Shown piece after piece: positions 10,401-29,888 of a stretch of 29,888 bases of DNA. Numbering within the stretch: position 1 is the stretch's first letter; every line of letters begins with the position of its first letter. The notes beneath the pieces are model-generated. The model was not told the origin of the DNA. It saw only the letters and a program-made list of their open reading frames with translations, and did not search any database. This stretch comes from a virus: positions 1 through 29,888 of the IMG/VR virus record IMGVR_UViG_3300028388_001448; one strand, given 5' to 3'. Both the position numbers and the translations under genes were made by a program.

Positions 10401-10671
10401 CATTAAGTTCTCCACCGTGTATTGGATTATTGTTAGTATCGGTGTAGAATGTTGGATCGCCAAAGGTCTCAGTCAAGTCACGCTGTGATGTAAGCAAGTA
10501 TGGCTTACCAGCATTTGCCTTAAGTGTACCTGGAGCGATACCTGTGCCAGCGCCATTATTTTTGTTTTCGGCGGTGGCAACGAAAATCATTGGAACTGTA
10601 CCTGGTTCAGCTGGAGTGTAAAAACTTTCGTCTATTACGCTGACCTGTACGCCTGGTGATGTTAGTGCCAT
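7408..10671 (-). CDS. gp18: Contractile tail sheath protein gp18, with large internal insertion
   Basis: gp18 subunits wrap the tube and contract to drive it through the host envelope. The N-terminus (MALTSPGVQVSVIDESFY, GTVPMIFVATAENKNNGA, YGLQAAYSMLGVSNRAFVVRADVDL, residues 1-115) and the C-terminal third (about 670-1087, with IAQRKVVVQQLQAMV, NLMATPGYPELI, INVARLVIFLRSQLNKLAKPYIFEPND and AVEFIYIPLRLKNTGEI) are the conserved sheath core. Between them lies an insertion of about 545 residues (120-665) rich in Thr, Ser, Ala and Gly, with repeated Trp/Tyr modules. At 1087 aa it is far longer than T4 gp18 (659 aa). A late promoter at 10708-10715 and an AGGAG site at 10679-10683 precede the ATG. 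The insertion probably forms surface-exposed domains on the tail. This is inferred from the location of variable domains in known sheaths. Confidence 0.95.
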   Translation of the reverse strand: MALTSPGVQVSVIDESFYTPAEPGTVPMIFVATAENKNNGAGTGIAPGTLKANAGKPYLLTSQRDLTETFGDPTFYTDTNNNPIHGGELNEYGLQAAYSMLGVSNRAFVVRADVDLGALQPSADAPAADPADGTYWFDIQTTSFGIFEWNGSAATVPGGQAFTVKTPIVINDTTKLVGGQATGAPLTSVGTAGDYAVVTTTTINKLYYRNSTAWVQVGGNEWRKSWGSITGSVSNPTVTNGATIIMNGTTVTSTGTTLSAVAQDITTNLIADGITASVVDGKLVVFNDGSTDEALVIAEGTGLAAEVGITPGTYYAPKLNIAPHTQVPEFKTADSEPRPTGSIWVKTTEPNLGARYRVKVYNADTQLFEQVDAPIYATNHQALYWLDRAGGGANLPVGAVYVQSNVAEESNPLATFKIFRKSVAGGTTITSDKITTQVAASTYTFDIQESITNQPALNSAVTVSITTTGASSDADVIAGAINDAGFTNIEAEVDAQNRVVIKHRTGGDFRIADTDGALALMGFAAYVDANTGTPNLYAAPAGDTANDFVASSFKVLSYTAGEDAPTALTADGALWYNSIVDEVDILINDGSKWVGYLTATSPYWVASASDQTNPTGPIVSASEPTTQSDGTALKNGDLWVSTADLENYPTIYKYNGALLKWELVDKTDGTTENGIIFADARYNTAGANSSAAGDIEDLLASNYVDTDCPDPALYPKGMMLWNTRRSGFNVKKFVRNYVDTTGDNIRFNDESMDAYYPHRWVTESANQEDGSGSFGRIAQRKVVVQQLQAMVNSNQDIRDNESRIFNLMATPGYPELIGEMVTLNYDRGLTAFILGDSPMRLTPDATSLNEWATNVNLAVEDNDQGLVSRDEYLGIFYPAGFTSDNAGNNVVVPPSHMMLRTIALSDQVSYPWFAPAGTRRGGITNATATGYIDNEGEFVSIALNEGQRDTLYAQNVNPITFITGAGLVNFGQKTRARGSSSLDRINVARLVIFLRSQLNKLAKPYIFEPNDKITRDQIKQAAESLMLELVGSRGLYDFLVVCDESNNTPARIDRNELYLDIAIEPVKAVEFIYIPLRLKNTGEIAGL
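8677..10314 (-). repeat. Insertion with repeated Trp/Tyr modules inside gp18
   Basis: Encodes gp18 residues about 120-665. Related modules recur at about 131-152 (DGTYWF to FEWNGS), 340-372 (TGSIWVKTT to VKVYN), 571-597 (DGALWYN to DGSKWVGY) and 635-664 (NGDLWVST to YKYNGALLKWEL). Each has a G-x-L/I/Y-W strand, then an aromatic-x-x-N/D-G turn and another Trp. The repeats are divergent at the DNA level. Confidence 0.55.
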
Positions 10672-10707
10672 TTTATTTCTCCTATAAGGTATAAGTTGTG
10701 CTATATG

Positions 10708-10715
10708 TATTTAGT
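10708..10715 (-). promoter_or_regulatory. Late promoter octamer ACTAAATA before gp18
   Basis: Minus strand ACTAAATACATATAG, 36 nt upstream of the gp18 ATG, with AGGAG at 10679-10683 in the leader. Six of eight bases match TATAAATA. Confidence 0.55.
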
Positions 10716-10763
10716 CATCTGCAATCAAAAATACCTAAAATAGCAGTATAAAAAGGGGTCAAA

Positions 10764-10778
10764 AAGGTGAGGTAAATA
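10764..10778 (+). promoter_or_regulatory. Shine-Dalgarno overlapping a late-like octamer before the HNH-like gene
   Basis: AAGGTGAGG (10764-10772) lies 10 nt before the ATG at 10783 and is a good ribosome-binding site. It overlaps GGTAAATA (10771-10778), which ends 4 nt before the ATG. If the octamer were the -10 element the ribosome site would not be transcribed, so only one reading can be right. I favour the ribosome site. Confidence 0.45.
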
Positions 10779-10782
10779 CAGT

Positions 10783-11118
10783 ATGAGACCGTTATGTGTA
10801 TGCAGAGCACGACCTGCTGCTATAAATTATAAAAAAGATGGTAAAACTTACTATCGAAAATTATGCGAACGCTGTTTACGCAACGGTAAACATCACGGTA
10901 TACCAAAATGGAAACAGCGCGGATATGTTAAGAAAGATACCTGCGAAAAATGCGGTTTTCATTCACAACACAACGAACAATTTAATGTTTTCCATATAGA
11001 CGGAGATCTAAATAATTGTAGACCCAGTAATCTAAAAACTATCTGTGCTAACTGTCAGCGTATTCTTCAAAAGGACGGGGTGCGCTGGAAGCAAGGTGAT
11101 CTAATCCCTGATTTCTAA
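10783..11118 (+). CDS. Small HNH-like zinc-ribbon protein
   Basis: A 111-aa basic protein with nine cysteines. C5, C7, C28 and C31 can form one zinc site. C54/C57 (CEKCGF) and C88/C91 (CANC) bracket an HNH-type core with H71 (FHIDG) and N83 (SNLKTIC). The usual final His of the HNH motif is Gln92 (CANCQR), so the nuclease may be inactive or use a different residue. I recall close relatives as small conserved proteins in marine T4-like phages. It is the only plus-strand gene in the left 12 kb and converges on the kinase gene, overlapping its 3' end by 71 bp. Possible roles are a DNA-binding accessory protein, an HNH nuclease aiding packaging, or a homing-type remnant. None is proven. Confidence 0.8.
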   Translation: MRPLCVCRARPAAINYKKDGKTYYRKLCERCLRNGKHHGIPKWKQRGYVKKDTCEKCGFHSQHNEQFNVFHIDGDLNNCRPSNLKTICANCQRILQKDGVRWKQGDLIPDF

Positions 11119-15522: not shown

Positions 15523-15822
15523 ATGGCAGAACTAATTAGAGATCTAGAAAGATTTCAAAAAGATTGTAGACGTTATCAAACAATCATTGAGCGCATCGAA
15601 CCAGTAGATGCTGCTAGACATAGAAATCTAAACACCATGTATCACGATTTTTTGCTTAAAGTAGAAGCAGTAGATAAAAGTGTAGAAGATATGGTCAACG
15701 GATTTGTTGCTGTGGGCCTACAGCACGGAACTTATGTTGAAGAACTTAAGAAAGCAAGACTTAAACTAGATAACGCTGCTAAAGATGCAGAGAAGCTGTT
15801 GCTAAAGCATGAACAACAGTAG
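15523..15822 (+). CDS. Small helical protein, unknown function
   Basis: A 99-aa, almost entirely helical, charged protein with heptad-like segments (LERFQKDCRRYQTIIERIE and EELKKARLKLDNAAKDAEKLLLK). It resembles a two-helix coiled coil with no enzymatic motif. The ATG follows the Nudix stop by 1 nt and has GGAG about 8-11 nt upstream, so it belongs to the same operon. The last 14 bp overlap the next gene. I recall no named family. A structural or chaperone-like role is possible from its position between tail-completion and oxygenase genes. Confidence 0.75.
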   Translation: MAELIRDLERFQKDCRRYQTIIERIEPVDAARHRNLNTMYHDFLLKVEAVDKSVEDMVNGFVAVGLQHGTYVEELKKARLKLDNAAKDAEKLLLKHEQQ

Positions 15823-16414
15823 TGCATACGGTTTTAGTAATGTAGGATATTTACTAGAGGACGTTCCTAGCGAAATTCTATACATTTTTGATACGGCTAT
15901 CAGCCAGGCAACAAATCCATACAATCACAACCTAGCCGGCAATATAGAAAAAGAATTTGACCTTGCACACACGATACCGCAAGTACAAAACTACTTTTGC
16001 TGGCTAGCACTGCAATATAAAAATGTATTTCAATACAATCCTAGAGGTATAAAATCAGATAGTCAAATCGTGCTACAAGATCTTTGGGTCAATATACAAG
16101 AAAAACACGAATTCAATCCAGTGCATAATCACACAGGACTTTTTAGTTTTGTAGTTTGGTACGATATTCCTTATACAGTACAACAAGAACTAGAAGTTAG
16201 TCCAGGTAAAAAAAGCAATAACAATCTTGCAGGACATTTTGAATTTCAATATATAAATGCATTGGGCGAAATTACTACACTACCCATTCCTGCAGACAAA
16301 ACGTTTAACGGCAAAGTATGTTTCTTTCCAGCGCAAATGATGCACTGCGTGTATCCATTTTACAGTGACGGACAACGTATAACGATTAGTGGTAATATAG
16401 ATATAGGTAGATAA
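15809..16414 (+). CDS. Probable 2OG-Fe(II) oxygenase-like protein (tail-gene proximal, first)
   Basis: A 201-aa double-stranded beta-helix-type protein. H106 and H108 (NPVHNHTG), distal H179 (QMMHCVYPF) and R190 (QRITISGNID) are in the places occupied by the two metal ligands, third His and 2-oxoglutarate-binding Arg in the marine-phage 2OG-Fe(II) oxygenase family (I would assign PF13759-like). The second ligand is His rather than the classic Asp, as in the other three copies in this window. Segments LFSFVVWYDIP and GKVCFFPAQMMH are the core strands. The ATG overlaps the previous gene by 14 bp. It is the most divergent of the four copies, so activity is less certain. Substrate unknown, possibly a virion protein or host metabolite. 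Confidence 0.68.
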   Translation: MNNSSAYGFSNVGYLLEDVPSEILYIFDTAISQATNPYNHNLAGNIEKEFDLAHTIPQVQNYFCWLALQYKNVFQYNPRGIKSDSQIVLQDLWVNIQEKHEFNPVHNHTGLFSFVVWYDIPYTVQQELEVSPGKKSNNNLAGHFEFQYINALGEITTLPIPADKTFNGKVCFFPAQMMHCVYPFYSDGQRITISGNIDIGR

Positions 16415-16983
16415 TGGAAATTTCAAGTAAGAATCTTTTTGCAATCAAAGTAATGGAAGTCAAAGATTGTTTAAATAATAAACAAATAGGACAGTTAAAA
16501 AACATAGTCAAAGACATAGAATTACAAATTGAACCACATGGGTGGAATTGTAACGTAGAAACCAGCTTCAAAGACAAAAATCAACATTTAGATAGTTGGC
16601 TTTCTAATAATTTAAGTAATCATATCCTAAATTATATCACAGAAATTGTTAAATTAGATAAAAATAAATCATTGAACATCGATGCATGGATAAACAAATA
16701 CGGCCAAGGCATGTATCAAGAACAGCATAATCATAGTAATATAGATGTACTCCTTTGCGGAATACTTTATTTACAGGTACCTAAGGATAATACTGCCTAT
16801 ACACATTTTTTTGATCCTATAGAAACATTAAAACGTCAGTTAGGAGAGCCTGTACAAAGTGTGCAAATAGACAGTGAAGAAAATACTCTTATACTATTTC
16901 CGCCATACTTACAACATCTTGTAACTAAACAAAAAAGCCAACAGCATAGAATTACAGTTAGCTTTAATGTTGTTTGCGGTTAA
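16414..16983 (+). CDS. 2OG-Fe(II) oxygenase-like protein (second)
   Basis: A 189-aa member of the same family. H105 and H107 (QHNHSN), a middle H131 (THFFDP), distal H168 (PPYLQHLV) and R179 (QHRITVSFNV) line up with the ligands and Arg of the other copies. INKYGQGMYQ, LLCGILYLQ and LILFPPYLQ are the core strands typical of these phage enzymes. TAATG overlap with the previous stop and AGGTAG before it indicate coupled translation. The stop overlaps the convergent fibre gene's stop by 4 bp. The tandem pair is the last part of the plus block and is co-transcribed with gp15 or from the Nudix promoter. Substrate unknown. Hydroxylation of a protein side chain is one possibility, given the neighbouring fibre genes. 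Confidence 0.75.
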   Translation: MEISSKNLFAIKVMEVKDCLNNKQIGQLKNIVKDIELQIEPHGWNCNVETSFKDKNQHLDSWLSNNLSNHILNYITEIVKLDKNKSLNIDAWINKYGQGMYQEQHNHSNIDVLLCGILYLQVPKDNTAYTHFFDPIETLKRQLGEPVQSVQIDSEENTLILFPPYLQHLVTKQKSQQHRITVSFNVVCG

Positions 16984-19682
16984 CTAGTATACTTTAACAA
17001 TCCCCAGTTGAATACCAACTGATATCCGTTACTGCCCGTTACGTCCCAATTAGTTCCGCTTAGTCTATAATATCTATATGGTGTTTGATTATACACTGGG
17101 TGCCACTTGTGTGGGGAATCGATAACATTTGCATATACATTTTGCCTGCCGCTCCAAAGAAGATATCCTTCACCGTATCTTTGCTGATTTCCATTGTGGC
17201 GTGTCCAGCTACTGACCCTATTCCAAGTAGAACGATCGTTTGATCCTTCTACCCAGTTTTGGCCGCCATAGTGACTGCCCCCAGGATAACCAATTGCAAA
17301 TGTATAATCAAATGCAACCGGTGTGCCTAGATCTACTTCGATCCATCTGTAGTCGCTGCCGCCAAACTGCTGGAAACCATATGAAGGCCAATCGCCGGTG
17401 TTATCCCTGCTAGTTGCATCTGCAACATTGCTTGGAGTACCGCCCTGGTTGGCGCCCCCCGAATCTCTCCAAGTAAGACTTCTAGCATCACCTAATGGTC
17501 CAGATGGTGTTAGATAGTTTGTGTACCTGTTAGGATCTACATAATTTTCTGTTTCGAGATATATAAGAAGTTTATCTCCAGTGGCACCTCCACCGCTGCC
17601 AGATTTAGGATTCACGTCATTGATTAGACCACTGTAGTTACTAGTGCTATCAATTTGTCCCCAATACATACCTGAAGACCATACACTTCCGCTGTCATTG
17701 CCTAGTGTAGGAATATCATAAGCTTCACTACCGTTGTTGTTGTGTTGGAAATGCAATCCTGGTAATCCTTGATTACCAGTACCTACTTCAATACTGCTGC
17801 CTATTGTAGGAAATACACGATAGGTACTGTTTAAACTAATTCCGTAGCTAGGCCAATCGCTGATTGCACTAGTAAATAATTTGATTAGGTTTTCTATGAA
17901 TGGAGTTCTTTCAAAACGCCACATTACATCAGGATTATTGGCACTAGTAAAACAGGCTCGAGTCCATGATTCCCAATATGGTTGATCTTGCCAGCGAGTT
18001 ACACTATAACCGCTGTTGTTTTCTGTAAGATTACCGTACGATACAAAATTTGGATTTTGCACTGTGCCAACGCCTGTATTATCACTTATAACGGTACTTA
18101 ACCATCTTGTTCTTTCAAACGGTTGTAGATTTAAATTAAAGCTTCTATTGATGCTAATACCGTTACTGGCGGCTGCTACTGTAAATGGAATATTAGTGCT
18201 AGCATTGGTTTTTTGGAAGTACCCTTTAAGGTCTCCCGTTGCTGTGTCTAATTCTAAACCTGGTGGCAAACTGCCGCTTACCAAACTATAACTTACTGTA
18301 TCGCTACTGTCTGGATCACTGGCACTAAGACTTAATGCTACAGGTTTATCAACGTTAGCATTGTATCTTACTATAACTGTTCCATGGCCTCCGCCACCGT
18401 CTGGGCTATCACTATTAGTGGAGCCACCACCGCCGCCACCAAGACCGTTTACTCCGTTGTGTCCTTCTCTGCGTCCATTAATGCCTGCGCGGTCTCCACC
18501 CAATCCGCCACCGCCTAGTCCTCCTGGGCGGCCGTTGTTGTTACCAGACTCGCAACCTGCTGCACCACCGCCGGCGTAGTATTTTAGTGTGCCGTCTATG
18601 TCATATTGTAATCCATCGCCGCCTGCGCCTTGGCCATCAGTGTTGCCTGCTTCGGCAGCGCCGCCACCACCGCCACCATCTGCACCGCTTGAATTACCTC
18701 CAGCAAATCCTTGACCCGGTGTTCCTGGGTGTCCTCCGCCGTTTCGGTTACGACCGTCACCACCGCCTGAACCGCCCGATGTACCTAGGTTTACATTACC
18801 ACCTGTTCCGCCACCACCACCAATGGCTGTATATCCAAATGCACTTGAATTTTGTCCTTGTCTACCAGAACCGCCAGCACTGCTAGATCTTTCTGCACCT
18901 GATCCTACTACTATAGTATAATCTGTATTTTCATTTACACTTACATTAGACTGGTAAATTAAGCCACCGGCTCCGCCACCGCCACCATCATTGGAGCCAG
19001 CTGATCCGCCACCGCCAACAATTAGCACATCTATATTTCCACTGAATGGTGCTCTCCATATGTGATTACCCGGAGTAATAAATTTATGCACTTGATATGT
19101 TGTCGCGCCTTGTGTGTATGTATAACTTTCTGCACCAGGTAGTAGTTCTCTATCACTAAATGTTCCTATTGTTCCTGCGGCTGTATTCCACTGTACACTT
19201 CTATCTACTACGCCCGCAGGCTCTAGCAACGCACTTAGTCCACTAGGATTAGTAACACGCACGTTAAAGCTGGCGCCGCCTACATATCCTACAGAAGCTG
19301 CATTGGTATTAAATGTAAGCTCGCTACTGTTTACAAAGGTTGTAGGCACTGGTCTAGAAACATTGCTTACGCCTGGCCCTTCGATTTGCACTGTAGTTCC
19401 TGTACTAAAGTTACTTCCTAAAACTGTGATTGTGCTATCTGTATCTTCTCTAACAATGCCAGTAATACCTGTAATTGTTGGTGGCGCATCGATACCTTTC
19501 CAGCTTGCTTGTGCACCTACTCCTGTGTATTGCTCCACTAATTCAGTTGTGCTGTTATATCTAATTGTACCTGGTTCGGGTGATGGATTTCGTTGAGCAG
19601 TATTGCCACCGGGTAGTACTAGTCCTTGTTCACCACCAAATTCAGTGTCTGTATATTTTGTTTTTGAATATTTAATTGCCAT
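16980..19682 (-). CDS. Tail fibre/adhesin with IPT and Gly-rich domains
   Basis: A 900-aa multi-domain virion protein. The N-terminus (MAIKYSKTKYTDTEFGG, then PGTIRYNSTTELVEQY near 37-52) resembles a fibre attachment segment. Residues about 67-158 form an IPT/TIG-like Ig domain (PPTITGITG to LTFNTN). Residues 221-438 are extremely Gly-rich (GGGG, GGSGG, GGGLGG runs), like polyglycine-sandwich or Gly_rich adhesins. Residues about 446-520 look like a cadherin/He_PIG-type Ig domain (PVALSLSASDPD to GLELDTATGD). The C-terminal part from about 740 (WRDSGGANQ, WIEVDLGTPVAFDYTF to YRYYRLSG) recalls a discoidin/F5-8C-like carbohydrate-binding domain. It lies 1 bp after the 1672-aa fibre gene, with AGAGG before the ATG, in one operon. 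Likely role is receptor binding. Confidence 0.85.
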   Translation of the reverse strand: MAIKYSKTKYTDTEFGGEQGLVLPGGNTAQRNPSPEPGTIRYNSTTELVEQYTGVGAQASWKGIDAPPTITGITGIVREDTDSTITVLGSNFSTGTTVQIEGPGVSNVSRPVPTTFVNSSELTFNTNAASVGYVGGASFNVRVTNPSGLSALLEPAGVVDRSVQWNTAAGTIGTFSDRELLPGAESYTYTQGATTYQVHKFITPGNHIWRAPFSGNIDVLIVGGGGSAGSNDGGGGGAGGLIYQSNVSVNENTDYTIVVGSGAERSSSAGGSGRQGQNSSAFGYTAIGGGGGTGGNVNLGTSGGSGGGDGRNRNGGGHPGTPGQGFAGGNSSGADGGGGGGAAEAGNTDGQGAGGDGLQYDIDGTLKYYAGGGAAGCESGNNNGRPGGLGGGGLGGDRAGINGRREGHNGVNGLGGGGGGSTNSDSPDGGGGHGTVIVRYNANVDKPVALSLSASDPDSSDTVSYSLVSGSLPPGLELDTATGDLKGYFQKTNASTNIPFTVAAASNGISINRSFNLNLQPFERTRWLSTVISDNTGVGTVQNPNFVSYGNLTENNSGYSVTRWQDQPYWESWTRACFTSANNPDVMWRFERTPFIENLIKLFTSAISDWPSYGISLNSTYRVFPTIGSSIEVGTGNQGLPGLHFQHNNNGSEAYDIPTLGNDSGSVWSSGMYWGQIDSTSNYSGLINDVNPKSGSGGGATGDKLLIYLETENYVDPNRYTNYLTPSGPLGDARSLTWRDSGGANQGGTPSNVADATSRDNTGDWPSYGFQQFGGSDYRWIEVDLGTPVAFDYTFAIGYPGGSHYGGQNWVEGSNDRSTWNRVSSWTRHNGNQQRYGEGYLLWSGRQNVYANVIDSPHKWHPVYNQTPYRYYRLSGTNWDVTGSNGYQLVFNWGLLKYTS
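18371..19022 (-). repeat. Low-complexity Gly-rich coding tract in the adhesin
   Basis: Encodes adhesin residues about 221-438, with glycine in most positions and tetraglycine or longer runs at several sites. On the plus strand it appears as repeated CCGCCACC-type sequence, which opens a false Pro-rich frame in the antisense direction. Confidence 0.8.
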
Positions 19683-19683
19683 T

Positions 19684-22600
19684 TTATACCTCTAGTAGCT
19701 TCCATCCATATGTAGCGCCGCTGTACACAACTTCAAAACCTGCATCGTGCAGATCAACTAAAAGTGTATCATTTTGTCCATCAATTAAGTTTCCGTTATT
19801 ATCGACAGTTAACGGATTAGTTGCAAAAGTGCCTGCAAGATCCTTAATTCTTACACTGTCCCCAACAGCAGGAGTAGCTGGCAGAGTGATTGTAAAACTT
19901 CCACTCGATGTATCTGCAAAAATTCTATCGCCGTTGGTTGCTGTATAAGCAGTATCCTGTGTGATCCAAGGATTACCGCCTCCTATACCACTCCACTGAC
20001 TTCCGTTATAGCCTTCAAAACTCGACAGATCAGTGTTGTATCTAATCATACCAGCTGTAGGACTTGACGGTCTGTCTGCTGTTGATCCTGCAGGAACACG
20101 TATGTGTTGTAGTCCTATTTCACTAACATTCTGTCCAAATACATCAAATTCTACTGTGTCTGTTTGGGCTCCGCTTCCTACTACTTCAACTTTAGTTTTA
20201 TTAGGATCTGCACCAACTTGAATAGTACCTAAACTTTCACTTAGTTCAGAAGTTTTATTGGTAACATAAGTTACGACTGCTCGTTCAGTTGGAACTGCTG
20301 TATCACTGTTATCAGCAAAAGTACCATCTGTACTGAATTCATTAATTGTTGCACCTGCTCGACCTGCTGTAATACTACCAAGTTGTAGTTCATTGAGACC
20401 ACTTAGGTCAAATTCTTCTGAACTCAATGTAGCTCTACCAGTGGCCTGTTCAACCTTGAAGTAATCACCAACTCGGAAGTTACCATCTTGGTCAGTGGTT
20501 ACGTAGAACACTCTACCACCATCTGCACTATCAGTTTCTCTTGCTTGATCAGGTGCTTGCACGTAATCTTCTTGAATTATCACAGGATAGTTGGTATCAG
20601 CAAAGCCACCAGTACCAATATCTAGGAAGTCATGTCCTGTCATACGCACCTGGCTGAATGCTTCTCTAAACACTAGTGCTGTGTCATCATCTGGAGTCTT
20701 GTTACTCGGGATAGCTGGTTCTAATGCGATTTCACAAGAACCACTAGCTAATACAGACGGTGCCGCGTCTGGACCATTTGCAATTACATCCGTAATAATA
20801 TCTACACGATTATTGGTAAAAATATCTATACCAAGTTCCACTGTAGCATGCCCTGTTTCCTGTGTAACACCGCTATATGTATTTGCAGGACTAGACTTGT
20901 CTAGAGCATTTACTACTAATCCTTTTAGGTAACTTATAGCCGCAATAATTTGATTTTGTTCACCTTGAACTTGACTGTATATTCCGCTCCAATAGGTTAA
21001 CGCTACATCTATAGTAGAATCATTTTGTTCAAAACTTCCTAGTGTGCTGCTATCTATATCACTTATCAAAGCATCAACAATATTACCAAATTTATCGCTG
21101 TAATCCACTTGATCATATGTAAAGTTTTCCCAAATGCTACCCGGAGTTGCATTTGCAATTTGATCTGTAATCCAGCCAATTGTTTCTTGCTGAATCCAGT
21201 TCTTGTTAGATGTAAGTGCATCAACAGAATTTGGATTATTATCTTGATCTACACCAAAATTTTCTTTGAAGTTATTTACACCAATACAAAAATAAGTTTC
21301 ATCATCGCCTGTAATATGAACTACACTACCTTCTTTAGGCTTTCTAGCTAGGCCACTTACTGCAAAATTAATTCCTGTGCCAATACCTGCAAAGCCGGCT
21401 CTAGTTGCAGCGATTGTTCTTGTAATACCACTACTTTGATTTAGTGTTAGATTAGAATCAACCAATCCTAATGTAACTTGGTTAATTGTAGGATCAGCTA
21501 GATCTGCTTTTGTTACAATTGTATTTTGATCTTCAAATGTTGCTAGCACACCCACGTTATAGTTTCCACTAGTGACTGTACCAAAATTACCAGTACCGTC
21601 TCTTTGAATATTAATTAATAGTGAATCGTTTTGGTCAATGCCGCCTGCTATTACGTTTACACCGTCTAAAGATACACCGTTCAATACAACATTATTAATA
21701 TTATTAGTTACATATTGTATCCACTGGCTCGATCCGTTTGAATTATATCTTGCTACCATACCGGTATTGTTTGTGTTGGTTCCAGTATTCATGTAACCAA
21801 CAGCATAAATGTCATTACCAAATGGAAGAACTTCTTTAAATTCTCCTTCTTCGGAACCAAGATAACATTGTTCTTGCCATTGTACTTCACCTGTTAAACT
21901 AAGTCTAAAGATAATTGGTCTTCTAGCGGCATCCGGACTTGCATCATACCAACCGCAAGCTACCAAATAAATTCCATCTCCGTTGCCAGTATCAAGTTTA
22001 ATACTGTTTATATTAACGTCACCATAGTCATATGCATCTACATAAGCGCCTACATTTGATAATCTTATAACATAACTTTTGCTTTCTCCCGGATCCTTTA
22101 CAGCTATGTATAGATTATTTTCAGCAGTTGCATCACCTGATGCTTCGTATGAATCTTCGCTAGTGGTAGGAGTTCCTCCATATGTACAACTAGTTGCAAT
22201 CCAATCGCTATCGCCAAAAGTTCTCGACCATGTTTCTAAGCCTGCAGGCGTAAGTCTAGTAACACTAACACCACTAGATACATGCTTACCTATAACATAA
22301 AGATTTGTTCCGTCTGTAGTTGCATCGGTTATTTCAGAAACATCGCCTAATGTTTTTTGCCATTGGAATTCACCGTTTCGTGATATTTTTATAACAAAAG
22401 CCTTTTCAGTACCGTCATAAAGTAATCCTGTTGCATAAAGACTGTCGTTGATTTCTATTATGTTGTGTACAGCACCAAAGTTTGATTCATAAGAGTAAAT
22501 CCAATCTAGTGACCCTGCATTGTTTAATTTTATAATAATTGGATAACTTGCAGTGTTGTCGTATGTGCTAGTGTTATCTAACCCAGTAGGAGCAGTATGT

Positions 22601-24702
22601 CCTACACCGTAAATGTTACCTTGGAAATCTCTGTAGCTGGTAAAAATATGTATATCGTCTTCGAAAACTTGAACACTGCTAATAATATCATCGTTAAGTT
22701 GAAGTCTTCCTGCGAGAGGAGTTTCTGCTTGGCTAAAGCCTCTTGCTACTGCGCCAAAATCTCCATAAGAATTGTTACCTACAAGTGCCCTAATTTTAGC
22801 ACCACTCTCAGCTAGATATCCAATTCGACAGTAATATGTGAATACTGATACAAGCTCCACTCTTGCATCTGATTTTACATGAATACCAATACCGTCACTG
22901 TTTAATTGTGTCCAGTCATTGGCAACCATCGACTTATAACCACCGTTATGCAGAGAACCGTCTACAAGCATTCCTGTACCTTCAGGTGTAAAACTTGTAC
23001 AGTTTTGAATATAAGGTGACTGGCTGGTAATCCACACACTAGTGTCATCTGGACCTGTGCCCGGATCTAGTGCGGTACAAACTGCACCTGTACTAAATCC
23101 TCTAAACACAATATTTCTAAGTCTACATCCGTTATTCAGTTGGAAAATATCACTGTTAGCATTAGGCGTTGAACCGTCTTTGGATATACCGGCGCCGTAT
23201 CCTTTATCGTTAATATTATCCGGACTTATAGTTACAGCACCTAGTCCATTGCCTTCAATAACAACACTACGGCCTACACGCATAGGACACAATTCATCGT
23301 ATGTGCCTGCTGCAATATTAATTTTACATTGACCTAAATTAAAAGTTTGCTGACATGCATATTCTATAGTGCGCCAGCTTGTGGTTGCAGTGCGTCCGTC
23401 GTTACTATCATCGCCTTCTAAACTTACATAATATTCTGTCAGAGGACTTTGGTGACCCCATCTTACATCTGTTCCGTCACTGTATAATACCGACCCTGCA
23501 GGTCCAATAGGTAATCTATCTGCTTGAACTGCGCCTCTTACCAAAAGATCTCCACGTTGTGCAATTACAGCATTACTATCACCTTGAGCTATAAGGTTCC
23601 AGTTAGAACCATCGTCTGTGTCAGGTTGATTACCTTGATTGTCACTGGATACACTTATGTAGCTGCTTTGTGCATATTCTACAACATCACCAATTTCGTA
23701 TTGTATGGCCGGATCGTATGTGCCGTTCCATTTAAACCCGTCGATTAATAATTCCCAATATGTAGGATTAGGCGGCTCCGGAGTTGTAGATCCGTCATTC
23801 TCATATGTTTCTATACAGATGTATGCTCTACCGCCTAAACGAACTACATCTCCTGTAGTATAATCATTAAATTCTGACCATTCACCTTGCCAGCGCAAAC
23901 CGTCTAAAAATAATTCAAAATTACTATCTGAATCTGGATTTATACCTTGGGTAACTCCAACTGCTGCGTATAATTTAGCACCAAACTTTACAATATCTCC
24001 TGGCTTATATTCTGTTGGCAAATTATCATCATCGCCTTTAAAGAAATCACCCTTCCAAGTAAATCCGTCTAGTATTTTTGTCCAGTAAATTATATCAGTA
24101 GGCAAATTAGCTAAAGGACGTAAATTTTCGTTACAGACATATCTATTGCCACCGAAGCTAACTACTTCACCAGGCTTATATTGTTGTGAACTCGACCATT
24201 CCCCTACAAAAATAAATCCTTTAGAAAATATTGCCCAAAAAAGACTGTCTGTAGGATTATTTGCTTGTGTATTCTGTACGGCAACGTATAAGTATCCGCC
24301 GTAGTATACAATATCACCTTTTTGGTAATTGTTCGCTGCTGACCAATCTCCTTCAAACTGTTGACCGTCAACAAATTTTTGCCAATCGTTAGCAGCGGTA
24401 TAAGGATTTGCCGCAGTATTTTCTCGCAGTGCAATATACACTGCACCACCATAAGTAATTACCTGTCCTGCTTTATAGAGGGTTGAATCGTTCCATGTAC
24501 CTGCATTTTCAATACCAGCAACCATTAAGTCTACACTGGCTAGGTTTTCTGCAAAGGTTGTTCCTGAAGTATGACCGTCTGTTACTGTGTAAACATTAGG
24601 TCCATATTTAAACACATCATCTTTATCGTAGTTGGTAGAAGGAGTCCATGCTCCTGTCCAATTAAATTTGACTTTACCTAATGATATAGTACTGATAGCC
24701 AT
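19684..24702 (-). CDS. Very large tail fibre with carbohydrate-binding repeats, beta-helix and propeller
   Basis: A 1672-aa fibre protein. Residues about 13-372 hold seven copies of a 45-55-residue repeat (G-x-W/Y-x..Y-x-x-G-D/Q-V-x-x-G-x-x-Y), like CBM5/12 chitin-binding modules. Residues about 424-660 form a pectate-lyase-like right-handed beta-helix (YYVSLEGDDSNDGRT to FRGFSTGA and VAND). Residues about 672-1045 look like a seven-bladed beta-propeller with repeats of F/V-I-x-L/I-x-x-x-G-x-x-x-W-x-x-x and Y-x-x-G/D. Residues about 1050-1500 return to beta-rich fibre stem (INQVTLGLVDSNLTL, GITRTIAATRAGFAGIGTG). The C-terminus has a GMIRYNTDLSSFEGYNG segment and an end domain. The late promoter at 24730-24737 and AGGAAG before the ATG fit high late expression. 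The gene is co-directional with the 900-aa adhesin. This fibre probably binds and perhaps cleaves host polysaccharide. No catalytic residues are certain. Confidence 0.9.
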   Translation of the reverse strand: MAISTISLGKVKFNWTGAWTPSTNYDKDDVFKYGPNVYTVTDGHTSGTTFAENLASVDLMVAGIENAGTWNDSTLYKAGQVITYGGAVYIALRENTAANPYTAANDWQKFVDGQQFEGDWSAANNYQKGDIVYYGGYLYVAVQNTQANNPTDSLFWAIFSKGFIFVGEWSSSQQYKPGEVVSFGGNRYVCNENLRPLANLPTDIIYWTKILDGFTWKGDFFKGDDDNLPTEYKPGDIVKFGAKLYAAVGVTQGINPDSDSNFELFLDGLRWQGEWSEFNDYTTGDVVRLGGRAYICIETYENDGSTTPEPPNPTYWELLIDGFKWNGTYDPAIQYEIGDVVEYAQSSYISVSSDNQGNQPDTDDGSNWNLIAQGDSNAVIAQRGDLLVRGAVQADRLPIGPAGSVLYSDGTDVRWGHQSPLTEYYVSLEGDDSNDGRTATTSWRTIEYACQQTFNLGQCKINIAAGTYDELCPMRVGRSVVIEGNGLGAVTISPDNINDKGYGAGISKDGSTPNANSDIFQLNNGCRLRNIVFRGFSTGAVCTALDPGTGPDDTSVWITSQSPYIQNCTSFTPEGTGMLVDGSLHNGGYKSMVANDWTQLNSDGIGIHVKSDARVELVSVFTYYCRIGYLAESGAKIRALVGNNSYGDFGAVARGFSQAETPLAGRLQLNDDIISSVQVFEDDIHIFTSYRDFQGNIYGVGHTAPTGLDNTSTYDNTASYPIIIKLNNAGSLDWIYSYESNFGAVHNIIEINDSLYATGLLYDGTEKAFVIKISRNGEFQWQKTLGDVSEITDATTDGTNLYVIGKHVSSGVSVTRLTPAGLETWSRTFGDSDWIATSCTYGGTPTTSEDSYEASGDATAENNLYIAVKDPGESKSYVIRLSNVGAYVDAYDYGDVNINSIKLDTGNGDGIYLVACGWYDASPDAARRPIIFRLSLTGEVQWQEQCYLGSEEGEFKEVLPFGNDIYAVGYMNTGTNTNNTGMVARYNSNGSSQWIQYVTNNINNVVLNGVSLDGVNVIAGGIDQNDSLLINIQRDGTGNFGTVTSGNYNVGVLATFEDQNTIVTKADLADPTINQVTLGLVDSNLTLNQSSGITRTIAATRAGFAGIGTGINFAVSGLARKPKEGSVVHITGDDETYFCIGVNNFKENFGVDQDNNPNSVDALTSNKNWIQQETIGWITDQIANATPGSIWENFTYDQVDYSDKFGNIVDALISDIDSSTLGSFEQNDSTIDVALTYWSGIYSQVQGEQNQIIAAISYLKGLVVNALDKSSPANTYSGVTQETGHATVELGIDIFTNNRVDIITDVIANGPDAAPSVLASGSCEIALEPAIPSNKTPDDDTALVFREAFSQVRMTGHDFLDIGTGGFADTNYPVIIQEDYVQAPDQARETDSADGGRVFYVTTDQDGNFRVGDYFKVEQATGRATLSSEEFDLSGLNELQLGSITAGRAGATINEFSTDGTFADNSDTAVPTERAVVTYVTNKTSELSESLGTIQVGADPNKTKVEVVGSGAQTDTVEFDVFGQNVSEIGLQHIRVPAGSTADRPSSPTAGMIRYNTDLSSFEGYNGSQWSGIGGGNPWITQDTAYTATNGDRIFADTSSGSFTITLPATPAVGDSVRIKDLAGTFATNPLTVDNNGNLIDGQNDTLLVDLHDAGFEVVYSGATYGWKLLEV
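21568..22689 (-). other. Beta-propeller-like domain inserted in the large fibre
   Basis: Encodes residues about 672-1045. About seven degenerate blades are recognisable, each with a pattern such as IIIKLNNAGSLDWIYSY, FVIKISRNGEFQWQKTL and IIFRLSLTGEVQWQEQ followed by a NxLYV/NDIYAVG strand. The flanking fibre sequence (GNNSYGDFGAVARGF before, INQVTLGLVDSNLTL after) reads as one continuous stem that the propeller interrupts. Confidence 0.6.
23587..24666 (-). repeat. Seven CBM5/12-like tandem repeats in the large fibre
   Basis: Encodes residues about 13-372. Seven divergent repeats begin at about 13, 66, 116, 164, 214, 270 and 322. Each has an N-terminal W-x-G-x-W/Y strand, a YxxGDxVxxGGxxYxx core, and ends near a W-x-x-F/L. 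They are similar at protein level but not identical at DNA level. Confidence 0.7.
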
Positions 24703-24990: not shown

Positions 24991-24998
24991 TATTTAGC
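24991..24998 (-). promoter_or_regulatory. Late promoter octamer GCTAAATA before the 79-aa gene
   Basis: GCTAAATACTTT on the minus strand. It contains the stop of the 2OG-oxygenase gene and is followed by AGGAG and the ATG at 24972, 18 nt further on. Confidence 0.6.
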
Positions 24999-25578
24999 AA
25001 GATTTAAGATCAACATAGTTGAAGCCAGATTCTTTCCCCAGTGCGCGAGGTAGTATATTAAAACTTACTGTTACTCTAGGACTGTTCTGTTCAACTGCTA
25101 CGCTGCTGTGTACCATGTCGCTAGGAAATAAAACCAATCTACCAGGAATACTTTCAACAGTAAAGTATCTTGAACTAAATTCGTTTTGTTGAATACTAGG
25201 TACTTGTACCATTTCTACGTCTTTGTGATGATAGAAAATAGTCGGTGAGCTTCTGTCAAAATATAATATACCGCTTACCAAACTATTTGAATGCACATGC
25301 GGAGTAATATTTTGTCCTTGTGAGTACTTGTTTGCCCACATCTGTGTAATCCATAACTCTTGCTTGCCGTAACCGCAACGATCCAGATACTCTTTTGCAA
25401 AATCTAATATTTGCATTACTGTTTGTTGCATAAAAGTTTTATTATGTAGATCACTTTGACTTTGTAAGAATGTACCTTTATCGTACTTCCAGTCAATACT
25501 GGAAAGTTCAGGTAACTCAATTTGAGTGTGGGCAATTGGTGTAGGAAATATTCCCATAACAGTCAGTTCGTTTTGCAT
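24994..25578 (-). CDS. 2OG-Fe(II) oxygenase-like protein (third)
   Basis: A 194-aa protein of the marine-phage 2OG-Fe(II) oxygenase family, counted from MQNELTVMGIFPTPIAH. Metal and substrate residues are visible: H94 and H96 (PHVHSNS), a Tyr/His pair FYHHKDV, distal H157 (DMVHSSV) and R168 (SPRVTVSFN). LVSGILYFD and GRLVLFPSDMVH are core strands and RALGKESGFNYVDL is the family's C-terminal piece. The ATG at 25578 is supported by a GATAATTA octamer exactly 5 nt upstream, so this start is preferred over a longer frame starting at 25656 that would cross the divergent promoter. The fourth copy (28435-29061) shares the same C-terminal signature, so the two are the closest pair. Confidence 0.8.
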   Translation of the reverse strand: MQNELTVMGIFPTPIAHTQIELPELSSIDWKYDKGTFLQSQSDLHNKTFMQQTVMQILDFAKEYLDRCGYGKQELWITQMWANKYSQGQNITPHVHSNSLVSGILYFDRSSPTIFYHHKDVEMVQVPSIQQNEFSSRYFTVESIPGRLVLFPSDMVHSSVAVEQNSPRVTVSFNILPRALGKESGFNYVDLKSC

Positions 25579-25583
25579 ACAAA

Positions 25584-25600
25584 TAATTATCGGATAATTA
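25584..25600. promoter_or_regulatory. Divergent late promoter pair, GATAATTA in both directions
   Basis: TAATTATC-G-GATAATTA: minus octamer 25584-25591 and plus octamer 25593-25600, separated by one base. Each ends exactly 5 nt before an ATG (25578 minus, 25606 plus). Neither side has a Shine-Dalgarno site. They must compete for polymerase. Confidence 0.7.
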
Positions 25601-25605
25601 CTATT

Positions 25606-26325
25606 ATGAATGATAAATTGAAGATAAAGTTCAGCAAGCCCGATAAAAGACTTCACGAATTTTCAGGAAAAAATATTGTAATTAACACATTTGACGACTG
25701 GGACAATATACCTGATCCGGTGCCTGCAAAGCGTAGTATTCCTGAATGGTTTAAACAACAGGGTCCTATGGATAGCAAAAATGGTTTGATAAAAACTGTT
25801 AAGAAGTGTGTTCCTTTTTTAGATGCACTTACTACTGGATATGTAATCAAATTTTGCAGCGATTTACAAATAGATATCACAGATAGACAAGTGGTTTATG
25901 ATGGTCCGGGAAAAATCTTTTGTAGCTTGCATCCAAAAAAACAATTTGACAAATTGCCTATTGCAGATTCCACAGTTTTAAAATTTAGCAGTCCTTGGGT
26001 AATACAAACGCCACCAGGGTGGAGCTGTCTTTTTTTACATCCGTTAAATAGCTTCAATGATAAGTTCGAAACACTCAGCGGTATAGTTGACACCGACACT
26101 TATAGATTGCCAGTAAACTTTCCGTTTATAGCTAAAAGTAACAACATTACACTAGATGTCAATACTCCAATGGTACAGGTCATTCCTTTTCGTAGACAAG
26201 AATTTGAATTAGAAATTGATACTGTAAACTATGATCAATGGATGGCACATCAACATGCAATTGGTGATCAGTGGACCAACGAGGGTTACAAGGATTTATT
26301 TCATCAAAAGAAAAAATACAACTAA
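25606..26325 (+). CDS. Conserved marine-phage protein of unknown function (possibly DUF6065-like)
   Basis: A 239-aa protein, counted from [14 protein letters not shown]. Landmarks are [48 protein letters not shown], a hydrophobic [36 protein letters not shown] and a final [13 protein letters not shown]. From memory this layout recurs in marine phages as an unannotated or DUF6065-like protein. I am not certain of the DUF number. No catalytic motif is certain, although the conserved Pro, Gly, Asp and Trp residues suggest a folded enzyme or binding protein. The ATG is set by the 5-nt octamer spacing. It converges with the DnaJ gene, overlapping by 4 bp. It is the only plus-strand gene in the last 13 kb and its job is unknown. 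Confidence 0.8.
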
Positions 26326-26621
26326 AGTTTTTCTACAGTAACAAATCCTGTGCCCATTTTAATTTCAACTTTTACTTTATCGTCTTGCAGTAGTTCGCCT
26401 AGTATAGGTATACGATCTTTAATTAGTGCATCATAACGCACACGTTTTTTTGGATCACTTAAAATTTCGTATGCTTCCTGCACGTTTTGGAATTCAGTTG
26501 GGTTACCGCCTTTGTCAGGGTGATGTTGAAGTGTAAGTTTTCTATATGCATCTTTGATCTCTTCAGGTGATGCATGATAGCTTATATACAGGATTTGGTA
26601 ATAATCTTTAGATTGAATCAT
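26322..26621 (-). CDS. J-domain (DnaJ-like) co-chaperone
   Basis: A 99-aa protein with a full J domain in its first 65 residues: [34 protein letters not shown], with the invariant HPD at 34-36, and [18 protein letters not shown] at the end. J-domains stimulate the ATPase of DnaK/Hsp70. A short C-terminal tail (about 30 residues) replaces the Gly/Phe and zinc regions of full DnaJ, so this is a minimal J protein that would work with host DnaK. I place the start at the ATG at 26621. A longer frame to 26678 lies inside the preceding gene, has no obvious ribosome site, and adds a non-J N-terminus. It overlaps the preceding gene by 14 bp. It may aid folding of large fibre or tail proteins. That is inferred. 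Confidence 0.85.
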
Positions 26622-26934
26622 CGTACAACAGATCAACTTCACTAATTGATATTGCACCTTGCGGCAGTGTGCTATCACCAGTATAATCTATAGGACGCAC
26701 ACTTATAAAACCGCCGATAATATTTGGTAGCAGTTCAACAGTATTTCTAGGAATAATCATGTCATAAAACTGAGCTTCGACCGTATCGTCAAGGTTTTCA
26801 CTGAATTGTACTTGCCAATCAATATTGCTAGTTGCTACCCTTACCTGTTCAGTAAAGAAAGGACCCATTCTAAAAGGCAATGTGTCTATTAAATTATGGG
26901 TCTGTGTTGTAAATATTTTCTTAATTAAGCTCAT
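26608..26934 (-). CDS. Unknown phage protein, beta-rich
   Basis: A 108-aa protein with hydrophobic strand-like stretches ([60 protein letters not shown]) and an acidic C-terminus. I recognise no family. It is the first gene of the DnaJ pair: its 3' end overlaps the J-domain gene by 14 bp. The octamer AATAAATA ends 4 nt before its ATG at 26934, and the halogenase stop is just upstream. Co-transcription with a co-chaperone could mean it is the client or a partner, but this cannot be shown. Confidence 0.7.
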
Positions 26935-26947: not shown

Positions 26948-28438
26948 CTATTTGTATAAGTTACTCAAGTAATCGTAGTGATTTGGCCATATATCAAGGA
27001 TTTTGTCAGTCTTAGATTTTTCTGAATCAATAAACAGCTCTACATACGTCTTATAACTTTCTAGCATTAAAACATCTGAGTCATTGTAAAAGTTGCTGCC
27101 AATTAACATTTCTATCCACTGTCCGGTATGGAACATAGTAAACTTGCCAGGCTCAAACATTGAGTCTATGTCTCCGGTTAGGAATGTTTTCATACGTTCT
27201 CGTAGGGTGTCTGGATAGGATTTGGATGTTACTTCCTTCCAGAAGTCTGTATCATTTCTATTAGACAATTTGTAGTGTAAGAATATAAAATCTCTAATTT
27301 CATAGTACATAACTAGCCACTCTTGGTTAATCATGTTGCAGTTCTGTACACTCCAAACACCGTCGCTTAACCGTAAACTTTGCAATAAAAATTCTAAAGT
27401 TTTGGTTGTAAAAGTTATACCAGTGGCTTCTAATGGTTCTACAAAGCCACCGCTAAGACCAACTGCAACCACGTTTCCATGTGCTACGCCTTCGTGTGTT
27501 CCGATGCGCATGTCTAAGTGTCTAGCTTCGGCTTCATACTCTCCTATAACCTCACGCAATTCTGCTTCTGCTTCTTCTGGTGTGCAATATTTGTCACTGT
27601 ATACATAGCCGTTACCAATACGCTCATATGTTGGAATAGTCCAACGCCAACCATTTTTCATTGTCGTTGCCTTAGTGTACGGATGACATTCTTCTTGCGG
27701 ATTAGTATACTGCGTAGGAATAGCAACAGCTTTATTACAAGGTAAATTATTTGTCTCGTCAATCCATCTTGCTTGCATTGTCTTTTCTAACAAAATACTG
27801 TTAAATCCCGTGCAATCAATAAACAAATCAGCAAAATATTCATTACCGCCTTCATCGCGCAAACAGCTAATTCCGTCCTGATTTGTATCAACTTCTACTA
27901 TTTTTGCATCAACGGTATTAATTTTTTCCGATAGCAGTCCTTTAATTGTTTCGCCTATTTTAAAGGCATCAAAATGCACAGCGTCCCAGGTATCATGTTG
28001 ATATCCAAAATTAAAATCCATAACAGGCTGTAACTTTGGACTTAAATTATTTTTTGCTAATCTATAACTAGGAATCCAATCGAAAAATTTCTGCTTGTCG
28101 TTGCTTACCCAGTATTTGTGTGTGGTTACACCCGGACCTAATAAAAATGTACTGACGCTATCGTTATCAACAAAATATGGAGTATCACTCCAACCTGTGA
28201 ACTCTACACCTAACTTATAAGTTGCTTTCGCATCCTTCATCCAATCGTCTGGCTGTAATCCGCACTGCCGTAAAAACTCTGTTGTATATGGTTGTGTGCC
28301 TTCTCCTACTCCGATAATACCAACACTACTGCTTTCTATTAGTTGTATTTCGACTGCTTCGGGTATTTGATTTCTTAGATATGCTGCACTAAGCCAACCG
28401 CTGGTGCCGCCGCCTAGTATAATAATTTTTTTAATCAT
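26948..28438 (-). CDS. Flavin-dependent (tryptophan-halogenase-like) halogenase
   Basis: A 496-aa enzyme of the tryptophan halogenase family (PF04820 type), using FADH2, O2 and halide to halogenate an aromatic or other substrate. With the ATG at 28438 as residue 1, the FAD-binding GGGTSGW is at 9-15, GVGEGTQP at about 43-50, and the catalytic-Lys position at K75 (TYKLGVEF). The diagnostic W-x-W-x-I-P motif (WRWTIP) is at 264-269 and GGFVEPLEATG with its conserved Glu is near 330-340. A cyanophage halogenase of this type (VirX1) has been characterised and can iodinate. I know of it from the literature and infer a similar class here. The ATG overlaps the preceding stop as ATGA, so it is coupled to the fourth oxygenase. 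A GTG/ATG five codons earlier is less likely. Length is about that of the family (500 aa). Confidence 0.9.
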   Translation of the reverse strand: MIKKIIILGGGTSGWLSAAYLRNQIPEAVEIQLIESSSVGIIGVGEGTQPYTTEFLRQCGLQPDDWMKDAKATYKLGVEFTGWSDTPYFVDNDSVSTFLLGPGVTTHKYWVSNDKQKFFDWIPSYRLAKNNLSPKLQPVMDFNFGYQHDTWDAVHFDAFKIGETIKGLLSEKINTVDAKIVEVDTNQDGISCLRDEGGNEYFADLFIDCTGFNSILLEKTMQARWIDETNNLPCNKAVAIPTQYTNPQEECHPYTKATTMKNGWRWTIPTYERIGNGYVYSDKYCTPEEAEAELREVIGEYEAEARHLDMRIGTHEGVAHGNVVAVGLSGGFVEPLEATGITFTTKTLEFLLQSLRLSDGVWSVQNCNMINQEWLVMYYEIRDFIFLHYKLSNRNDTDFWKEVTSKSYPDTLRERMKTFLTGDIDSMFEPGKFTMFHTGQWIEMLIGSNFYNDSDVLMLESYKTYVELFIDSEKSKTDKILDIWPNHYDYLSNLYK

Positions 28439-29061
28439 CTCAGTTCCGCCCAATTAAAATGTTCTTGATTGCCCAATCTTGAAGGCAACAGATTGAAGCT
28501 CAAAGTATATCTACTTTTACCTGTGCTATTTTTTTCGCTTCGATGTTCTACATAGCTAGGCCATAATATCAATTTATTTGGTTCGGCCTTGCTTGCTACT
28601 TTTTCTGTTAAAAATATAGTATCGTCTCTAGTAACACTAATACTGTTACGCATTTTACTAACAGGATTAAAAAACTCTGTTCCGCCTTGATCCGGTGTAG
28701 TATTTAAATAAAATACTCCACTTAGTAAACTGTTTGTATGCGTATGTGGTCCTATGGTTTGACTTGTATCAAACTTGTTCATCCACATACTGGTTATATA
28801 CAAGTCGTATGGTTTATATCCTACTTGTGAACAGTAGGTCTTTGCGCAACTTAAAATAGCATCGCACAATTTTTCAAACAACTTATCATCTTGTAAATTT
28901 TGTTTGGTAATCTCGTACATAGGAAATTCGCTAAACCCTTGATGATGATTCATCCACTCAACTCTGTGAATCATATCATGGATTTCTGCATCGGAAAAAT
29001 CAAGTTTGAATTCTCCAAATGCAGTTGGGAAAAGTCCTGTTATATTATGTGATATGTTCAC
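28435..29061 (-). CDS. 2OG-Fe(II) oxygenase-like protein (fourth)
   Basis: A 208-aa protein of the same family as the one at 24994-25578. H106 and H108 (GPHTHTNS), an acidic EFFNPVS, distal H173 (SYVEHRSE) and R184 (KSRYTLSFN) are the expected ligands and Arg. LLSGVFYLN and LILWPSYVEH are core strands, and PSRLGNQEHFNWAELR is the shared C-terminal signature. The start is a GTG at 29061 with GAGG 7 nt upstream, and the first 17 bp overlap the methyltransferase gene. Its stop shares ATGA with the halogenase start. The three-gene chain methyltransferase, oxygenase, halogenase is therefore tightly translationally coupled, pointing to one pathway or complex. The substrate is not shown. Confidence 0.82.
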   Translation of the reverse strand: MNISHNITGLFPTAFGEFKLDFSDAEIHDMIHRVEWMNHHQGFSEFPMYEITKQNLQDDKLFEKLCDAILSCAKTYCSQVGYKPYDLYITSMWMNKFDTSQTIGPHTHTNSLLSGVFYLNTTPDQGGTEFFNPVSKMRNSISVTRDDTIFLTEKVASKAEPNKLILWPSYVEHRSEKNSTGKSRYTLSFNLLPSRLGNQEHFNWAELR

Positions 29062-29888
29062 GTTGTTTCCTCAATACAAATATGCCTAAGCCGTTCCAGT
29101 AATCGTTGGGATCTTCGCCTTTTGTAATTATTTCTTTTTCTAATTGAACTGTGTAGGCTTTTTGCTTTATATGATCTCTAGTAGCCGATTGTATTTGAGG
29201 CCAGTTCCAGTCATCTACAATTAGTATTACAGTTTCTTCAAATTTTTCACAGAATCTATCTAAAAAATTCTTTGTACTTTCGTATGTGTGATCGCCATCG
29301 TAAAAAACTACATTAGCACTATGCGGTAACTTATCAACATCTACACTTTCAACACTTTGATTATATCCTGTAACTTTATTCACCCCCTGTATTTTTTGTA
29401 GATTAGCAGTGAATATTTTTAATGGATTACCGTCGGGTGCATTCCAGCCGTCGACTTCTCGCATGGGCTTAATATCATTGGTGTGCCAGCTATCTATTGT
29501 AATAGCTTGAATGTTATTTCCTTCTAGTGCGCTACAAAAGGTTGCGCCGTGCCAACTTCCTACTTCGAGATATCTAATATCTTTAGTATTACAAATATTA
29601 TTTAAAAGGTGTTTAACTTTGTGACTAGTAAGTCCATCAATCTCTAATGTGATTGAAGTGCAATTACTTTGGTTGTTTAAACTAGCTTCTAATGAAGAAT
29701 TTACAGCATTTACAAAACGATTTTTTGTTTTAGCGTTGACAACATCTTCACAATAATGACATTTCCAACAATCAAACTTACAGTTTTTGATTTTTTGACG
29801 CCAAGCGTTGATAGGTTTATTTTCTAAATCGCCTAGCTGTATGTACGGGTTAAATTCATCAAACAATATTTCTTCTCCAGCAGCAAAT
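29045..29888 (-). CDS. SAM-dependent methyltransferase with SPASM-like Cys-rich leader, 5' end outside window
   Basis: The frame is open to the right edge, so the start is outside the window. The first in-frame TTG at 29866 has no ribosome site and is probably internal. The visible 281 codons begin with EEILFDEFNPYIQLGDL, then INAW, and a Cys cluster C-x3-C-x2-C-x2-C (NCKFDCWKCHYCED, 29747-29788). This is reminiscent of the C-terminal part of radical-SAM/SPASM proteins. A class I methyltransferase follows: motif I EVGSWHGATF, acidic strand TIDSWH and VFYDGDHTYES, with VILIVDDWNW later, which fits the Methyltransf_24 type. It is coupled to the fourth oxygenase and the halogenase. What it methylates is unknown. 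A fusion of a radical SAM enzyme with a methyltransferase is the simplest reading but cannot be confirmed here. Confidence 0.8.
   Translation of the reverse strand, partial: FAAGEEILFDEFNPYIQLGDLENKPINAWRQKIKNCKFDCWKCHYCEDVVNAKTKNRFVNAVNSSLEASLNNQSNCTSITLEIDGLTSHKVKHLLNNICNTKDIRYLEVGSWHGATFCSALEGNNIQAITIDSWHTNDIKPMREVDGWNAPDGNPLKIFTANLQKIQGVNKVTGYNQSVESVDVDKLPHSANVVFYDGDHTYESTKNFLDRFCEKFEETVILIVDDWNWPQIQSATRDHIKQKAYTVQLEKEIITKGEDPNDYWNGLGIFVLRKQREHIT

Follow-up and report, generated by a model that had tools for sequence, protein, structure and literature searches.

What do a methyltransferase, an oxygenase and a halogenase modify when a phage encodes them in overlapping genes close to its tail fibers? 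The question is raised by the right end of IMG/VR record IMGVR_UViG_3300028388_001448, which comprises 29,888 bp in full and is analyzed here in its entirety (the window). The minus strand carries, in reading order, the C-terminal half of a gene that we call UMT (phrog_1458; 29045..29887), a predicted 2-oxoglutarate (2OG) oxygenase gene with a GTG start, OXY (28435..29061), and HAL (26948..28438), which begins with an ATG at 28438 and encodes a predicted flavin-dependent halogenase of 496 aa. An earlier note on this DNA had proposed three coupled genes for tailoring-type enzymes, and both the reading frames and the family matches support this: the UMT and OXY frames overlap by exactly 17 bp (29045..29061), and OXY and HAL share an ATGA stop/start overlap (28435..28438). 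We propose, at roughly even confidence, that this stretch belongs to a conserved tail-fiber-linked tailoring operon of marine T4-like phages, the enzymes of which decorate tail-fiber or adhesin proteins.

The product of HAL matched PF04820 with 350 bits (cut-off 21, E 2e-104; positions 1–445 of 458) and all solved tryptophan-type halogenases in the PDB, with PyrH (2wet) scoring best at 256 bits and VirX1 (6qgm) reaching 206 bits. It contains GGGTSG (residues 9–14), K75, WRWTIP (264–269) and E337 within EPLEATG, and the residue that follows the catalytic Glu is Ala in place of Ser; the functions of these motifs are assigned according to the halogenase literature. In an alignment of 47 phage halogenases, GxGxxG, the catalytic Lys, WxWxIP and the catalytic Glu are conserved through the UMT-linked relatives, so the loss of catalytic residues that the earlier note had considered was not observed. 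Judged by its motifs, HAL is an intact and complete predicted flavin-dependent halogenase. The UMT-linked halogenases form a single clade (SH-aLRT 100) that is separate from VirX1 and other cyanophage halogenases; in this tree, a quick one with some long branches outside the UMT-linked clade, VirX1 groups with S-CREM1.

The 5′ part of UMT lies beyond the right end of the record at 29888 and is therefore unavailable. Full-length relatives comprise 567–580 aa, and the window holds only the C-terminal half, with a Cys-rich linker and a Methyltransf_24 or TylF/COMT-type O-methyltransferase domain. This fragment matched PF13578 with 37 bits (cut-off 26, E 8e-9) and phrog_1458 with an E value of 1e-64 (positions 242–519 of 519), a family that was found in 123 annotated cyanophage records and >500 IMG/VR loci. 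An AlphaFold model of UMT based on 41 sequences (pLDDT 86.8) has two domains. In fold searches with this model, the C-terminal domain (residues 366–575) matched TylF/COMT-type O-methyltransferases with Z scores of 15–17.5 and TrmR (5zw3) with a Z score of 16.1, and the N-terminal domain (residues 10–290) matched the U32 peptidase 5d88 (Z score 15.8, 225 of 247 residues, root-mean-square deviation 3.2). UMT is thus modeled as a fusion of a U32-like domain and a TylF/COMT-type O-methyltransferase, and the methyltransferase identity given in the earlier note agrees with both the profile match and the fold. The C-terminal domain shares the acidic DxxH…DDxN residues with TylF, MycF, NovP and COMT; it differs from them in being part of a fusion.

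We refer to the N-terminal domain as U32-like, and not as a U32 member, because the sequence tests were negative and the cysteine spacing is different. UMT had no match to PF01136 in Pfam and none to U32 proteins in an hmmsearch of the PDB, and hhalign against four U32 proteins from Escherichia coli gave no significant result (P 0.025, probability 2%), so that membership by sequence was rejected and the fold alone supports the relationship. The invariant cysteines C209, C213, C244, C335, C339, C342 and C345 form the pattern C-X3-C-X30-C plus C-X3-C-X2-C-X2-C, which does not match the U32 motif CX6CX15CX3/4C, from which UbiV departs as well. The Cys-rich CX3CX2C stretch joins the two domains and has a lower pLDDT. 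It had been described earlier as SPASM-like, a view that was not borne out: there was no Pfam radical-SAM or SPASM match, and the N-terminal domain has the fold of 5d88. A search for bacterial homologs of UMT gave two hits (L111 and L112), on short contigs of metagenome-assembled genomes labeled Dehalococcoidia and Euryarchaeota, which are probably wrongly binned phage sequence.

OXY is assigned by matches to PF13759 (68 bits, cut-off 27, E 9e-19) and TIGR02466 (66.6 bits, cut-off 62.5, E 3e-18) as a 2OG-FeII_Oxy_5/TIGR02466-type enzyme with the iron-site pattern H106-x-H108…H173…R184. The 2OG genes of the region are freely gained and lost. Two additional ones lie between UMT and OXY in the close relatives (L002–L011, L031–L035) and are missing from the window, so the 17-bp UMT/OXY junction is particular to the window phage. 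The −4 ATGA junction between OXY and HAL recurs in relatives wherever it is readable; in L002 the HAL frame extends to an upstream TTG, and the homologous ATG (locus position 10001) gives the same −4. Overlaps by themselves are common in phages, and it is the conservation of the gene set that exceeds chance. Purifying selection on UMT, OXY and HAL is strong in the relatives (dN/dS 0.02–0.15). One relative also contains a gene (L004:8115-8750) that bears the PHROG name 'ferrochelatase', yet its sequence pattern HxD…H (HRDRP…VMHWR) may identify it as a prolyl-4-hydroxylase-type 2OG oxygenase and the database name as wrong.

Whether the three genes belong together was addressed with a halogenase-seeded scan of IMG/VR, which yielded 80 loci, 39 of them non-redundant at 90% identity and with enough upstream sequence. 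UMT was within five genes of the halogenase in 36 of these 39 loci and directly upstream in 27; the other partners were p1409 (35/39), a 2OG oxygenase (32/39) and DUF6065 (29/39). At 70% non-redundancy, UMT was near the halogenase in 19 of 21 loci, and within the clade the linkage is kept down to 43–49% identity to HAL. These figures hold for the UMT-linked clade and not for all phage halogenases, because the scan pattern favors that clade. An independent, UMT-seeded scan revealed that nearly all loci share a core of tail fiber, p1604, p1409 and UMT, after which 2OG oxygenases, halogenase and DUF6065 come in different mixes. The linkage of UMT, halogenase and oxygenase is not due to chance, and the neighbors stay together in diverged relatives, a co-occurrence for which the earlier note had suggested a search. 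Its three-gene set stands in that the genes are real; its limitation to three does not, since further 2OG oxygenases and DUF6065 belong to the set. UMT is absent from the genomes of Syn10, Sf-CH11 and HTVC008M, all of which have a halogenase, and is therefore not needed by all phage halogenases. In L186 (3849-7485) and L178, a halogenase-oxygenase-halogenase triplet lies by genes of the tail-sheath-stabilizer type with no UMT nearby.

The DUF6065 gene (phrog_7084; 25606..26325, plus strand) adjoins the cassette on the opposite strand and was identified by PF19541 (E 2e-11), phrog_7084 (E 3e-41), its fold and its neighborhood; a second example is L028:11084-11872. Its model (pLDDT 77) has a dUTPase fold (Z score about 10 with 113–137 aligned residues; Foldseek E 2e-4), although inspection by eye found only one of the five dUTPase catalytic motifs, a motif-III-like Asp (D162), to be nearly invariant. 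In Syn10 a phrog_7084 gene directly follows VirX1, which was confirmed against 6QGM to be the Syn10 gene. A search with this VirX1-side member returned 15 annotated records, in 14 of which halogenase positions and annotations place a halogenase next to it. From this recurrence, DUF6065 appears to be a partner dedicated to the halogenases of phages. VirX1 resembles HAL in being a phage flavin-dependent halogenase with the same motifs, located beside a Gly-rich tail-fiber-assembly/adhesin gene, followed by DUF6065 and close to several 2OG genes. It differs in belonging to another clade, with about 32% identity to relatives of HAL, and the Syn10 genome lacks UMT and has a second halogenase in tandem beside VirX1.

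The position of the cassette indicates a possible substrate. In the window, two tail-fiber genes come after it on the same strand, one for a tail fiber protein of 1672 aa with CBM_5_12 modules (19684..24702; phrog_9851 tail fiber, E 2e-179) and one for a 900-aa tail protein with a Gly_rich_2 adhesin-type domain (16980..19682; PF21722, E 3e-22). Relatives usually hold the cassette beside tail-fiber genes as well, and in many lineages the order is tail-fiber protein, p1604/p1409, UMT, halogenase and/or 2OG oxygenases, DUF6065. Among 13 annotated phages examined outside the UMT-linked clade, 9 have the halogenase in the tail-fiber or neck region. This placement is found for VirX1 of Syn10 and in P-TIM40, P-RSM6, S-CREM1 and S-SRM01, the last of which has its halogenase between the tail fiber and the gp37-gp38 adhesin-tip genes. 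The small conserved proteins between tail fiber and UMT, p1409 and p1604 (phrog_1409 and phrog_1604; L004:5772-6509 and 4970-5725), are possible tail-fiber chaperones or substrates; in p1409 one Trp is invariant, and a Tyr before it is nearly so.

Because the cassette sits inside the tail-fiber gene cluster, a virion protein is favored, without proof, over a host metabolite among the targets that the earlier note had listed. The enzymes would then act during virion production on a protein encoded by the same operon, most likely on a side chain, whether aromatic or aliphatic, of the tail-fiber or adhesin protein or of the small partner proteins. This side chain would be hydroxylated by the oxygenase(s), and perhaps also by the U32-like domain, the hydroxyl would be O-methylated by the TylF/COMT-like domain, and an electron-rich ring would be halogenated by HAL, which would consume O2, FADH2 supplied by a reductase of the host, and bromide, iodide or chloride from sea water. 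The receptor-binding surface would in this way be chemically diversified. Enzyme types, linkage and position are observed, while from position alone we infer the substrate, and the order of steps and the effect on host binding are likewise conjectural. As a precedent only for an enzyme of this fold acting on a protein we cite QhpG, a monooxygenase with the flavin-dependent halogenase fold that acts on peptide-bound tryptophan; HAL has a weak NCBIfam match to it (25 bits), far under the QhpG cut-off of 240 bits.

Several observations weigh against modification of tail-fiber proteins. The U32 proteins that have been characterized act on RNA or ubiquinone and not on protein (PMC6599085, PMC6747719). 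In four of the 13 annotated phages outside the UMT clade, the halogenase has another location, close to psbA, hli or replication genes, and one IMG/VR lineage without UMT (L151/L153-L156/L192-L196) keeps it beside DNA polymerase. Aromatic residues that would set apart the tail fiber, p1604 and p1409 proteins of halogenase-positive phages were sought, with no usable result. Pro, Lys, Cys and aromatic positions of these proteins were rejected as halogenase-specific sites, as the columns were general or weakly biased and confounded by phylogeny. The surroundings of the cassette showed no T4-type late promoter. Finally, OXY has HxH at the iron site, where canonical 2OG hydroxylases have HxD/E. The acid is replaced by His in 135 of 172 phage relatives as well, and the solved homologs 2rg4 and 3bvc also align with HxH, so the predicted oxygenase activity is likely but not certain. 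In L153, of the lineage with the halogenase beside the polymerase, a ferredoxin/flavin-reductase-like gene with NAD_binding_1 and FAD_binding_6 domains follows the latter (10290-10997) and could be a source of reduced flavin.

It is also conceivable, if rather unlikely, that the enzymes synthesize a small molecule or surface glycan in the infected cell, or modify one with halogen, hydroxyl and O-methyl groups; a metabolite that aids host competition or alters the host surface would be an example. Many small aromatics serve as substrates of VirX1 in vitro (PMC8407142), and the TylF/MycF/NovP-type O-methyltransferases that are closest in fold to UMT act on sugars and antibiotics. A cluster of halogenase, 2OGFeDO and carbamoyltransferase genes in cyanophages S-SSM7, S-SSM6a and P-SSM2 was read by Iyer et al. 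(2021) as serving metabolite or capsule decoration (PMC7824862), which is the same type of role. That cluster resembles the window cassette in combining a halogenase with 2OG oxygenases and, in variants, O-methyltransferases; it differs in its carbamoyltransferases and sugar-related genes, and UMT and DUF6065 are absent from the stretch examined. Among the scanned ORFs of the window there was no carbamoyltransferase or HemK-like methylase, and neither the cassette nor its relatives had a recognizable gene for a carbamoyltransferase, sugar enzyme, carrier or synthetase. The fixed place in a tail-fiber operon across diverged phages also argues against this explanation.

The fold matches raise the possibility of a nucleic acid target, which we regard as improbable: UMT would hydroxylate and methylate a tRNA or DNA pyrimidine, and DUF6065, with its dUTPase fold, would handle the nucleotide. 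Among the U32 proteins are Fe-S hydroxylases that work independently of O2, UbiU/UbiV, as well as RlhA and TrhP, which are RNA-hydroxylation factors (PMC6747719, PMC6599085), and TrhP makes 5-methoxyuridine together with TrmR (PMC6599085), so that hydroxylation followed by methylation within UMT would parallel the TrhP-TrmR pair. The U32-like domain of UMT differs from these U32 proteins in being viral, fused to a methyltransferase and not recognized by PF01136. Against a nucleic acid target, UMT does not match the canonical cysteine motif, DUF6065 shows by eye a single dUTPase motif, and the genes sit with tail fibers and not with replication or tRNA genes; no tRNA was found in the window. 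Moreover, the flavin-dependent halogenase family is not known to halogenate nucleobases. Very unlikely, in our judgment, is that three unrelated accessory (moron) genes with separate roles are chance neighbors in a variable region. The gain and loss of 2OG genes and the halogenases without UMT in Syn10, Sf-CH11 and HTVC008M would fit such a view, but the proximity of UMT and halogenase in the non-redundant loci, its retention within one clade of diverged halogenases and the adjacency of DUF6065 to halogenases in annotated records all speak against it.

Other features of the window complete the picture of the locus. Directly downstream of HAL, as in close relatives, lies g108 (26608..26934, minus strand), a small protein without assigned function that had no match in Pfam, PHROG or NCBIfam. 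Next on that strand, within the cassette, is a gene for a stand-alone J-domain (DnaJ) protein (26322..26621; PF00226, E 1e-21), which occupies the same place in relatives; this is unusual for a tail-fiber operon and would fit a role in the folding of a virion protein. A second 2OG-FeII_Oxy_5 oxygenase, OXY2, is found at 24994..25656 (minus strand; PF13759, E 1e-16), and two further ones lie on the plus strand at the far side of the tail-fiber genes (15809-16414 and 16414-16983; PF13759, E 2.5e-10 and 4e-13). The terminase large subunit, sheath, tube, neck and tail-fiber genes confirm the earlier assignment to a T4-like phage. The closest relatives of the terminase are from Pseudomonas PA5oct-like jumbo phages (54% identity), and the window phage is therefore not a typical cyanophage. 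The label 'late region' for the cassette is inferred from its position. TATAAATA occurs once in the window, at 5341, which is below chance expectation; sigma-70 and terminator scans gave matches only at the level of shuffled sequence, and within the cassette, a search for repeats or for a small element resembling a precursor gave only pairs at chance level. Between the sheath and neck genes, a small plus-strand ORF (10783-11118) with paired CxxC-like cysteines (CRAR…CERC…CEKC…CANC) possibly encodes an HNH-type endonuclease.

That viruses encode halogenases has been clear since the first cyanophage genomes, and one such enzyme, VirX1, is an iodinase. Earlier guesses at the native substrate of these enzymes were host metabolites or antibiotics. 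The earlier note knew of no description of the set as a whole. A cassette of UMT, halogenase, 2OG oxygenase and DUF6065 at a tail-fiber locus indeed appears to be undescribed in open-licence PubMed Central papers, although the related halogenase and 2OG cluster of cyanophages has been published (PMC7824862). Our models give a first fold-based hint for phrog_1458, as U32-like plus O-methyltransferase, and for phrog_7084/DUF6065, as dUTPase-like, and the recurrence of the cassette in a tail-fiber operon provides a concrete and testable substrate candidate, the receptor-binding proteins of the virion itself. More tentatively, marine T4-like phages may tailor their own tail-fiber and adhesin proteins by hydroxylation, O-methylation and halogenation, and this may be the native role of viral halogenases, including VirX1, with DUF6065 as a dedicated partner. 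If this is true, receptor binding in these phages would be diversified by chemistry and not by sequence alone.

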